In this document: in pieces, positions 31,237 to 58,377 of the stretch
Layout: each line of letters opens with the position of its first letter
How positions within the stretch are numbered: the first letter of the stretch is position 1
Origin: Flavobacteriaceae bacterium
GTDB taxonomy: Bacteria > Bacteroidota > Bacteroidia > Flavobacteriales > Flavobacteriaceae
Direction of reading: 5' to 3'
Assembly (NCBI GenBank): GCA_029243245.1
Contig: JAQWSK010000004.1
Coordinates: 62,001 to 126,000, forward strand
Length of the DNA: 64,000 nt
Made by a program: the position numbers and the translations under genes
Notes under the pieces: generated by a model
Told to the model about the DNA's origin: nothing
Database searches by the model: none
Seen by the model: the letters and a program-made list of their open reading frames with translations, nothing else

Positions 31237-31260
31237 AATATTTTATTAAACTTCATAAAA

Positions 31261-31287
31261 AAAAGCTTCCAATTGGAAGCTTTTTTT
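31261..31287. terminator. Bidirectional terminator between rpsT and rho
   Basis: The palindrome AAGCTTCC-AATT-GGAAGCTT has T-runs on both sides (plus-strand TTTTTTT at the right, A-run at the left). It serves the convergent rpsT (+) and rho (-) genes. Confidence 0.85.
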
Positions 31288-46572: not shown

Positions 46573-47685
46573 TTAAACTCTTAAAAAAATTTTCTTTCTA
46601 TATAGTAGATATAAAAACATCCATTGAACTGTTAATAAGCAAAAAACATAAATAACAGAATCATATGGCTCTCCAATAAGATGAAATAACCATTTGAAAA
46701 GAGAATTTGTTGTATAACTCCAATTAATAAATAAGCTTGACATATAAATTAATATTGAATTCATACCAATAATTTTAAAGATAAAAGCCCACTTATTATA
46801 TTCTAAAACATCAATTAAATAATAAAAAACCGCCATAAGTAACATGCTTATTCCTCCACACTGAAGAACAAATGAGCTCGTCCATAAGTTTTTATTGATT
46901 GGAAAGAATAAATTCCAGATTTGAGCAGCAATTATTAGTAAAAAACTGATTGTTATAAGTTTAAAAGTAGTTTGTTTTCTTTTATTCACAGCAGTATTAA
47001 TTAAAATATTTCCAGTATAAATTCCTAATAAAGCAGTTGATATTGCTGGGATTGTGGAAAACAAACCTTCTGGATCATGAATTCCCAAAAACAACTTACC
47101 TGGCATAATCATTCGATCAAGATAAGAGACGATATTTCCTTCTATCGATAAATCACCTGCTAAAAATCCAGGAGCTGAGAAAAATATAATAAGCCCCCAG
47201 TATCCAATAAGTAAACTGAAAAACCAAAGAATTTGATTTCTTTGATTAGCATATAGATATATAATGTTCGCAAACATATATGCTAATCCAATCCTGCCTA
47301 AAACACTGCCAAACCTGATTTCTTCTATAGATTTAATTTCAAGTCCATTGTTGTATATGATCCCTAATAAAACAAGTATTATGCCTCGTTTGATTACTCT
47401 TTTTAATAAATCAGTTCTATTTTTACCTTTAGCTAGTTGTTTGCCTATAGAGAATGGAGTTGCAATTCCTGATAAAAATAAAAATAAAGGAAAAATTACA
47501 TCATAAAAAACAAAACCATTCCATTGTGGATGAATAAATTGATTAGATAATCCATGCCAAAAATTATTGGATTTAATCTCAGCCATTTTATGAAATATTT
47601 CCTCTGCACCAATAATCCAAAACATGTCAAAACCTCTTAGGGCATCTAAAGAATATAAACGATTATCTTTAGCAAGTTCTTTCAT
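46573..47685 (-). CDS. DUF5009/NagX-type membrane acyltransferase
   Basis: This 370-residue inner-membrane protein has about ten hydrophobic helices. The start LYSLDALRGFDMFWIIGAEE and the segment FYDVIFPLFLFLSGIATPFS fit DUF5009, a group related to heparan-alpha-glucosaminide N-acetyltransferase. Such proteins transfer acetyl groups to sugars across the membrane. It is the first gene of the leftward block that includes the HELMH lipoprotein. The substrate is not clear. Confidence 0.82.
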   Translation of the reverse strand: MKELAKDNRLYSLDALRGFDMFWIIGAEEIFHKMAEIKSNNFWHGLSNQFIHPQWNGFVFYDVIFPLFLFLSGIATPFSIGKQLAKGKNRTDLLKRVIKRGIILVLLGIIYNNGLEIKSIEEIRFGSVLGRIGLAYMFANIIYLYANQRNQILWFFSLLIGYWGLIIFFSAPGFLAGDLSIEGNIVSYLDRMIMPGKLFLGIHDPEGLFSTIPAISTALLGIYTGNILINTAVNKRKQTTFKLITISFLLIIAAQIWNLFFPINKNLWTSSFVLQCGGISMLLMAVFYYLIDVLEYNKWAFIFKIIGMNSILIYMSSLFINWSYTTNSLFKWLFHLIGEPYDSVIYVFCLLTVQWMFLYLLYRKKIFLRV

Positions 47686-47818
47686 TTCATAGCATTATAG
47701 TTTGTATTCTTAACCTTTCTATTGCAATATATAAATTTAATGTTTATAAAAATTATTCATCTTATTAAAACTAGACATTACTAAATAAATTATATATTTA
47801 CTATCCCAATTAAGTAAG

Positions 47819-47974
47819 ATGATAAGAAATATTTTAGATATTGATTTTCCTTCTGGTGTAAAACACCTTTATATGAATGGTAGAAGATATACTAAAAAAG
47901 ATTTTTTAAAGGCTAGAGCACTCGAGAAAAGACGAGGAAAAAAAGGCAGATTTATTTCATTAAATAAATTATAG
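47819..47974 (+). CDS. Small basic orphan protein (51 residues)
   Basis: ATG 47819 opens a 51-residue frame ending TAG at 47974. It starts MIRNILDIDFPSGVKHLYMN, is strongly basic in its second half (KARALEKRRGKKGRF) and has no signal peptide or membrane helix. I do not recognise it. Support comes from its position alone in a 350-nt gap and from a strong terminator just after the stop; a near-consensus TATATTTA lies 19 nt upstream of the ATG. The basic tail suggests RNA or ribosome binding, which is only a guess. Confidence 0.6.
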   Translation: MIRNILDIDFPSGVKHLYMNGRRYTKKDFLKARALEKRRGKKGRFISLNKL

Positions 47975-47989
47975 CAATTAATACTGAAA

Positions 47990-48021
47990 AAAAGCCCTTA
48001 AATTAAATTTAAGGGCTTTTT
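47990..48021 (+). terminator. Terminator after the 51-residue gene
   Basis: GCCCTTAAATT and AATTTAAGGGC (47994-48016) form a near-perfect inverted repeat flanked by an A-run and a T-run. It separates the small gene from the next hydrolase gene at 48032. Confidence 0.85.
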
Positions 48022-48031
48022 AATTAATCAA

Positions 48032-49036
48032 ATGAACATTAAGAATCAATATCTATTTTATAAAATAATTTTAAAAGCTTTTGTTATTTGCTTTTTACTT
48101 TTTTCCTGCTCATTTAACGATAAGAAACAAAACACTTCAAGTCAAGAAAAAAATAAATCTCGTTATGAATATATTGTTAAGAATGATGATTTTATAAATG
48201 AGATAGAGCAGTCCCTATCCGGAAATTTCATTGAATTAAGCAATGGAAATACTTATTATGAATTAGCAAATTTTAAAAGCCTTGGGCCTGTAATAGTTTT
48301 AATTCATGGATTTTCTGTTCCATCATATATTTGGGAACCAACATTTCAAAAAGCAAAACAATTAAGATTTAAGGTTTTGCGTTTTGATTTATATGGTAGA
48401 GGATATTCAGATAATCCAAATATAAACTATACTGATGAGCTTTTTGCAAAACAAAGTTGGGAGCTTTTAGATTCTTTATCTATTAACAAAGCGGTTTTAA
48501 TTGGACTTTCTAATGGTGGACGAGTAATTTCCAAAATGGCTCAAATAAATCCAGGCAGGGTTGAAAAACTAGTATATGTGTCTTCAAACGGGTTCAAAGA
48601 TGTAAAAGAAATGAATAATAAATCTGTTGGAGAAGCTGAAATTTTAAAGTTTATAGATAATTATAAATTTCTTTCTAAGAGTCAAATGAATGATTTTAAA
48701 AATCCAAATCAATTTAAAGATTGGGATAAAAAATACAGTGAATTACAAAAATTTAAAGGTTTTGCAAGAGCTTTAATTTCAACTAGTAAAAATCATGTTC
48801 CCTTAGATGATATTCATAAGCAAATTGCTAATAATAAAATTGAAGTCTATACATTGTGGGGAAAATATGATAATGTAGTTGTTTTTGAAGATTTCAAAAA
48901 TAAATTAAACCAAATTATACCAAATAGAAAGGAATTTTTTTTTAAATCAGCAGGTCACTTACCTCAAATGGAATCTCCAAAAGAATTTAACACAGTCTTA
49001 TTTGAAAAGATACTTGATTTCACTGAAAAAAAGTAA
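48032..49036 (+). CDS. Lipoprotein alpha/beta-hydrolase
   Basis: This 334-residue protein has a lipobox (ICFLLFSCSFND), a 40-residue linker and an alpha/beta-hydrolase fold. The oxyanion segment is VLIHGFSVPSYIWEP, the nucleophile Ser is in LIGLSNGGRV, and the His is in SAGHLPQMESP, with an Asp in WGKYDNVV. It is thus probably an esterase, lipase or peptidase acting on the periplasmic face. The substrate is unknown. The 3' end overlaps the LysE gene by 39 nt, tail to tail. Confidence 0.88.
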   Translation: MNIKNQYLFYKIILKAFVICFLLFSCSFNDKKQNTSSQEKNKSRYEYIVKNDDFINEIEQSLSGNFIELSNGNTYYELANFKSLGPVIVLIHGFSVPSYIWEPTFQKAKQLRFKVLRFDLYGRGYSDNPNINYTDELFAKQSWELLDSLSINKAVLIGLSNGGRVISKMAQINPGRVEKLVYVSSNGFKDVKEMNNKSVGEAEILKFIDNYKFLSKSQMNDFKNPNQFKDWDKKYSELQKFKGFARALISTSKNHVPLDDIHKQIANNKIEVYTLWGKYDNVVVFEDFKNKLNQIIPNRKEFFFKSAGHLPQMESPKEFNTVLFEKILDFTEKK

Positions 49037-58096: not shown

Positions 58097-58223
58097 ACAC
58101 CTAATAACAGGATTTGTTAAAAATAAATATAACAAATTTTGGAGCTTAAAAGATATTAATAAACTTAAAGAATTTTAAGAAAGGATTCTTAATTAAATTG
58201 ACTAAAATAAAAAAAGGAAAAAG

Positions 58224-58296
58224 TGACTTGACTGGGGCTCGAACCCAGGACCCTCTCCTTAAAAGGGAGATGCTCTACCAACTGAGCTATCAAGTC
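58224..58296 (-). tRNA. tRNA-Lys (anticodon TTT), second in order
   Basis: This 73-nt cloverleaf has acceptor GACTTGA/TCAAGTC, anticodon loop CTTTTAA (TTT) and T-loop TTCGAGC. CCA is not encoded. It lies 8 nt after the other copy and is read second from the shared promoter. It differs from it by one base in the D-arm. Confidence 0.96.
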
Positions 58297-58304
58297 TAAA
58301 AAAG

Positions 58305-58377
58305 TGACTTGACTGGGGCTCGAACCCAGGACCCTCTCCTTAAAAGGGAGATGCTCTACCAGCTGAGCTATCAAGTC
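58305..58377 (-). tRNA. tRNA-Lys (anticodon TTT), first in order
   Basis: This is the same cloverleaf as its neighbour, with GCTCAGCTGG instead of GCTCAGTTGG in the D-arm. It starts 14 nt after the -7 box on the minus strand. Two copies in tandem give extra Lys-TTT supply, which fits an AT-rich genome rich in AAA codons. Confidence 0.96.

Follow-up and report, generated by a model that had tools for sequence, protein, structure and literature searches.

The locus raises two questions: whether a 51-codon reading frame lying by itself in an intergenic gap of a Flavobacteriaceae genome is a gene, and, if it is, in what kind of process its short, basic product takes part. The window, i.e., the whole stretch analysed, comprises 64,000 nucleotides of contig JAQWSK010000004.1 (assembly GCA_029243245.1). 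The initial annotation, made from the letters alone, had described an orphan gene with its own strong terminator and a possibly undescribed ribosome- or RNA-associated product. The features discussed below are collected in Table 1, together with two further RNA features of the window.

Table 1. Features of the microprotein locus and other landmarks, in window coordinates
Feature	Position	Strand	Evidence
NagX-like transmembrane acetyltransferase, divergent	46573-47685	-	NF046061, 9e-103
TATATTTA, promoter -7-like box	47793-47800	+	sequence; kept in 3/5 upstream regions
51-aa microprotein gene, architecture A	47819-47974	+	ORF; homologues; pS vs pN; family alignments
Terminator-like hairpin with T-run	47989-48021	+	fold z = -4.9; rare in window
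Alpha/beta-hydrolase, lipoprotein-like start	48032-49036	+	PF00561, 5e-21
tmRNA, tag GENNYALAA	4470-4870	-	
Two tandem tRNA-Lys(ttt) genes	58223-58377	-	

The reading frame and its putative transcription signals

The frame opens with an ATG and closes with a TAG at 47972-47974. The interval 47819-48021 given in the initial annotation takes in a hairpin as well, whereas the gene itself stops at 47974. The product, MIRNILDIDFPSGVKHLYMNGRRYTKKDFLKARALEKRRGKKGRFISLNKL, consists of an FPxGV..NG core (approximately residues 5-35) followed by a basic RRGKKGRF tail; a hydrophobic start running into a Lys/Arg-rich end had been proposed, and the tail is indeed basic, but on inspection the N-terminus lacks a hydrophobic stretch of the membrane type. 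The frame is the sole occupant of the 346-nt gap 47686-48031. Its length is only mildly unusual and constitutes weak evidence (when the gap was shuffled 5000 times with dinucleotides preserved, an ATG frame of at least 51 residues turned up in 97 cases, six frames considered); gene status rests on conservation.

Close homologues were found in four other genomes, with identities of 82, 76, 68 and 60% over 48-50 of the 51 residues, and a more distant one (42%) in G026. In total, ten of the 60 genomes searched, the window's own among them, gave some match at E <= 0.1; weak matches in G012 and G045 and a second match in G002 were not counted as members. Two close homologues are present in the public metagenome-assembled Flavobacteriaceae MED704 and FRAM18_bin185. 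When the window sequence and its four close homologues are compared in all ten pairings, pS ranges from 0.32 to 0.59 against a pN of 0.09-0.28, changes are most frequent at codon position 3 in every pair, and the other two frames contain 3-9 stops each; the weakest coding signal comes from the pair formed by the window's genome and G002 (pN/pS 0.70). Given homologue conservation, the excess of pS over pN, the third-position bias and the stops in other frames, the frame is very probably translated and under constraint, and on this comparative evidence it is a genuine gene of a lineage-restricted family. The proposal of an overlooked, basic, lone gene is thereby borne out by conservation in relatives and by coding bias, whereas the label "orphan" does not hold, as other genomes carry homologues and the window's own genome has two paralogues.

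Upstream, the predicted -7 box is present within the block AATAAATTATATATTTA, which is kept in three of five aligned homologue upstream regions (G000, the window's genome, G005 and G003) and diverged in G010 and G002. TATATTTA resembles the Bacteroidota TAnnTTTG promoter box; a sigma-70 scan of the E. coli type listed no promoter before the gene.

The hairpin begins 15 nt past the microprotein stop and has a stem of 15 bp, a loop of 3 and a folding energy of -17.5 kcal/mol; none of 200 shuffles folds as stably. A strict terminator script reported it as one of two plus-strand sites in the 64-kb window and found none in each of five mononucleotide shuffles; the site also scores on the minus strand. 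A stock terminator scan did not list it. The other plus-strand site, a 13-bp hairpin at 31258-31287, scores on the minus strand as well. A similar hairpin occurs in G005 and is absent in G003 and G002, and the hydrolase frame starts only 10 nt past the hairpin end. The inverted repeat with its T-run is thus real, but with the hydrolase so close, and the hairpin in two of the four genomes that have this neighbour, it is probably a leaky terminator rather than a strong one. Partial read-through is the simplest reading, since full termination at this point would leave scant space for a hydrolase promoter. The microprotein would be made from its own promoter and be partially insulated from the downstream hydrolase.

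The divergent NagX-like gene matches NF046061 with 344 bits, under the curated cut-off of 480. The order of NagX-like gene, microprotein and hydrolase is common to G000, G002, G003 and G005, so that within the genus hydrolase and microprotein are both found in four genomes; neither was found in G001, G004 and G006, three incomplete assemblies (83-85% complete). The entire segment may be absent from the latter, since the best NagX matches there are merely 33-35% identical.

Extent of the family and its three architectures

A shared core of about 30 residues, FPxGVxS(I/V)Yx-NG(K/R)xYTxxEF, occurs in three architectures. In architecture A, that of the window gene, it stands alone, followed by a highly basic R..KGRF tail. 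The B proteins, less basic paralogues, follow the pattern M(I/L)GEYLFxNDFPxGVKSIYCNGRTYTREEF and are devoid of the GRF tail. Family proteins are roughly 44-63 residues long. In the third architecture, F, a 110-residue protein carries the core in the form FPxGVxSVYxxG(R/K)RVKKxD, N-terminal to an HTH_17 domain.

At E <= 0.001 the A profile matched 18 of 397 sampled Flavobacteriaceae genomes. In 14 of these the match was as strong as E <= 1.4e-20, and the remaining four are B or F genomes; besides the 14, G002 and G005 hold the A type. The order-level sample yielded one match in 395 genomes, the window's own genome, and a wider profile run on a phylum-level sample of 345 added to the own genome one weak match (G907), not counted as a member. 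With a combined A+B profile, 20 of 299 family genomes matched at E <= 0.01; G034, G088, G118, G215, G243 and G266, at E 0.001-0.007, were left out of the A and B counts, and an F protein was later recognised in G215. When 60 relatives of G123 were searched, the four matches were all previously known. Every genome counted with A or B is a Flavobacteriaceae assembly of at most 2.2 Mb, several of them incomplete. The A alignment comprises 16 proteins from 14 genomes, two of which (from G317 and G109) are A-like copies that occupy the position of B, and leaves out the latest members, G352 and G383.

Homologues of the F protein occur in 19 of the 25 genomes of genus g206 (assemblies of 0.8-1.3 Mb), and all 15 that were read show both the core and the HTH_17 part. 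Pfam assigns HTH_17 below its curated cut-off (E 6e-05 and 1e-04 in the two proteins run), and the match of the F proteins to mad1 falls on the HTH part; G060 was rejected as a member, its match being to the HTH part only. Profile comparison with hhalign gave probabilities of 98.6% (A-B), 97.1% (A-F) and 96.9% (B-F) over a common region of 26-31 residues; a control, run for A-F only, reached at most 5.2% over 30 column shuffles. The F profile is narrow (Neff 1.9) because the set comes from one genus, so the case for homology of the three cores is strong but not beyond doubt. At the two F loci read, distances of 19 and 22 nt separate the gene from a downstream enolase-superfamily gene, after which comes a DUF1611 gene; the names were given by Pfam for one locus and by gene cluster for the other. 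At L097 (4965-5309) the fusion gene stands right before this pair, which resembles D-glutamate utilisation genes.

Net charge differs between architectures: +7 to +12 in the 16 aligned A proteins (pI 10.0-11.5), -3 to +8 in nine B proteins and -4 to +1 in the N-terminal parts of 15 F proteins. The core has no strong charge of its own, while the A tail is strongly basic; as the F cores are not basic and the B proteins span the range given, nucleic-acid binding need not be a property of the core. A single-sequence structural model (mean pLDDT 72) places strands at 4-9, 15-19, 22-24 and 44-48 and a helix at 26-39, and a three-sequence model (mean pLDDT 61) places strands at 16-19 and 22-25 and a helix at 26-38. 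Only two elements are common to both, a beta-hairpin around residues 16-25 and a helix spanning 26-38, and the core is accordingly predicted, with low confidence, to fold as a beta-hairpin followed by a helix. The best Foldseek match, an endolysin at E 0.16, was judged uninformative. An AP2- or integrase-arm-like fold (three strands, one helix) was considered and is backed by no match listed.

Pfam, NCBIfam, PHROGs and PADLOC gave no convincing match to the window protein or the core, the window protein having no Pfam match at E <= 1 and none of 13 scanned A and B members matching an HTH family. Weak single-member matches (SAND and FNIP; four PHROGs; PRK12812 and PRK10954; PDC-M13C) were discounted. 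PDB sequences contained no convincing relative, and the literature searched, with subscription journals and small-ORF catalogues outside its scope, contained nothing on the family and none of five motif strings. The term "undescribed" agrees with these results: this is apparently an undescribed, lineage-restricted microprotein family with an informative fusion.

Gene neighbourhoods of the B and A types

The window's genome contains two further members of the family, at G000:C14 (minus strand) and G000:C5 (plus strand). The survey of B covered 12 loci, ten with B genes and two with A-like genes in the same position (G317, G109). At nine (L088, L089, L091, L093, L094, L095, L096, L100 and L101), an ORF of about 25 residues and of membrane-spanning type overlaps or trails B, starting between -23 and +20 nt from the B stop; five of the nine start with TTG, and by the script's rule the ORF is absent at L090, L092 and L099. 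The 25-residue single-span peptide at L091 (5139-5216, plus strand) reads MSFKQFLQIILVVIITLVVFMFLKK.

At ten of the 12 loci (not L091 and L093) the next downstream gene of at least 100 aa belongs to one BLAST cluster, formed by TPR proteins with a LuxR-type C-terminus in which a hydrophobic segment is seen by eye. GerE was matched above cut-off in G277 (E 8e-07) and below it in G003 and G006. In the window's genus, the TPR-LuxR gene is followed at five loci (L090, L092, L099, L100 and L101) by a gene of the PorP/SprF cluster, an assignment made by Pfam for the G003 member and by cluster for the others. An OmpA-SPOR protein comes next in G003 and G006; the G006 cluster also contains a giant repeat protein bearing a CHU_C type IX signal, which has a relative in G003, and in the B cluster of G000 the immediately following gene encodes a repeat protein. 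G127 differs in having its PorP-cluster and OmpA-cluster genes on the upstream side of B. For the B-position genes of G317, G109 and G277, none of the neighbours seen was of the PorP cluster, and the G379 locus ends too early to show one.

Some B genes are preceded, about 50-100 nt before the start, by an element with variants like acgtagtagtaatgacgtagttataaattcacta (L090), seen at L090, L099, L100, L101 and L092. Other forms occur at L094 and L096, with GCAGT-type direct repeats, atgcagtagaaatgcagtg, at L094. The element is possibly an operator or a repeat element; an inverted repeat downstream of B at L011 (G003:C36), ctacgtcactactactac ... gtagtagtgacgtagtt, resembles it. In G003, one B copy follows a gene pair that we take to be topoisomerase-like and heads the TPR-LuxR/PorP cluster. 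The corresponding position in G000 holds a B copy and then an XRE-type gene, the TPR-LuxR/PorP cluster with the other B lying on a different contig (loci L090 and L091 versus L092 and L093). B copies may mark rearrangement points.

Neighbours of the A type outside the window's order of genes are an M28 peptidase gene in G010, a small membrane-protein gene near CAP-domain and presumably RbfA-like genes in G123 (the latter name read from sequence; G325 by gene cluster), a 3-keto-disaccharide hydrolase gene in G317 (G109 by gene cluster) and an integrase gene in G308 (G093 by gene cluster). As these neighbours vary between genera, the A type is without a fixed partner or a visible fixed target across them.

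Candidate roles of the microprotein

The best explanation is that the microprotein is a small DNA-binding regulator or co-regulator with a role in DNA-related regulation, to which we give a probability of about 45%. This reading draws on charge, HTH fusion and context, the core recurring beside membrane regulators and in fusion with an HTH domain. The approximately 30-residue core would serve as a small interaction module, placed beside regulators or fused with them, and the strongly basic tail of A would provide nucleic-acid binding. Two known systems invite comparison. The excisionase- and MerR-like small regulators of HTH_17 (PF12728) include, in one flavobacterial genus, proteins with the core at their N-terminus, a segment outside the HTH that is probably homologous to the window family by the A-F comparison above; unlike them, the window protein has no recognisable HTH, merely the core and a basic tail. 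The TPR-LuxR (GerE) regulators that stand with PorP/SprF-OmpA-CHU_C clusters have B upstream at most loci surveyed, but the window gene lies outside any cluster of this kind and showed no adjoining ORF for a membrane peptide.

The ribosome- or RNA-associated role first suggested, as a lineage-specific ribosomal protein or an RNA chaperone, appears unlikely. The protein resembles small basic ribosomal and RNA-binding proteins in size, charge and the conserved basic tail, which suits RNA or the ribosome equally well, and some structural look-alikes found by VIA with the pLDDT 72 model are archaeal and eukaryotic ribosomal chains. These, however, reach a Z of at most 4.7, below the tool's usual background; endolysin domains and TolR/ExbD appear at similar Z, and with all Z < 5 no look-alike is a firm match. 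Searches of PDB sequences with the A3 and A4 profiles returned no ribosomal chain at E <= 5 and E <= 1, respectively. The narrow distribution of A (strong matches in 14 of the 397 family genomes and only the own genome at order level) speaks against a ribosomal component too, and gene regulation is suggested instead by the fusion to an HTH domain and by the regulators encoded next to the paralogues.

Even less probable is a relic or accessory of mobile elements, comparable to a recombination directionality factor. In G308 a Phage_int_SAM_5 integrase gene on the same strand precedes the microprotein gene by 55 nt, and the HTH_17 type found in the fusion is common in excisionases; the Pfam scan covered a few neighbours of the other A genes, so further integrases may lie beside them. 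Yet G093 has an intact microprotein next to a shorter integrase ORF (262 aa), and tblastn was negative for two members against phage records and for the window protein against plasmid records. IMG/VR gave five matches, all rejected: the one read (L045) is a 16-residue motif match inside a 237-aa phage-type protein, and the other four, set aside with it, show the same match length and E.

A leader peptide or attenuator, in which translation of the frame controls the hairpin and thereby the hydrolase, is very improbable. ORF, hairpin and hydrolase do stand in series, with 57 nt between the stop and the next start, and microprotein and hydrolase co-occur in the genus; but the amino-acid sequence is conserved in genera with different next genes, and G003 and G002 keep the frame where the hairpin is missing. 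Small basic proteins are common in toxin-antitoxin and defence modules, but a part in one is just as hard to credit here, as a weak PADLOC match (PDC-M13C, E 0.002) concerns one B member out of 19 members and the window gene has none.

Beyond the regulator reading lies a broader proposal, tentative and rather doubtful at present, that the FP-GV-NG core is a new regulatory module of about 30 residues in small-genome Flavobacteriaceae and the microprotein a detachable co-regulator of one-component systems. The module would have three uses: as a stand-alone protein whose tail binds nucleic acid; as part of a mini-operon that also encodes the 25-residue membrane peptide and a TPR-LuxR regulator, itself membrane-spanning, of type-IX surface adhesins; and as an HTH fusion before the enolase-superfamily/DUF1611 pair.

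Lineages with reduced genomes should lose the genes they can spare. A microprotein family that they retain, and that length cut-offs readily overlook, is therefore likely to benefit the cell. Should the core prove to be a regulatory module, it would offer a handle on how marine bacteria with few regulators control surface adhesins and peptide use, and it would illustrate that microprotein families may be read by comparing their stand-alone, operonic and fused forms.
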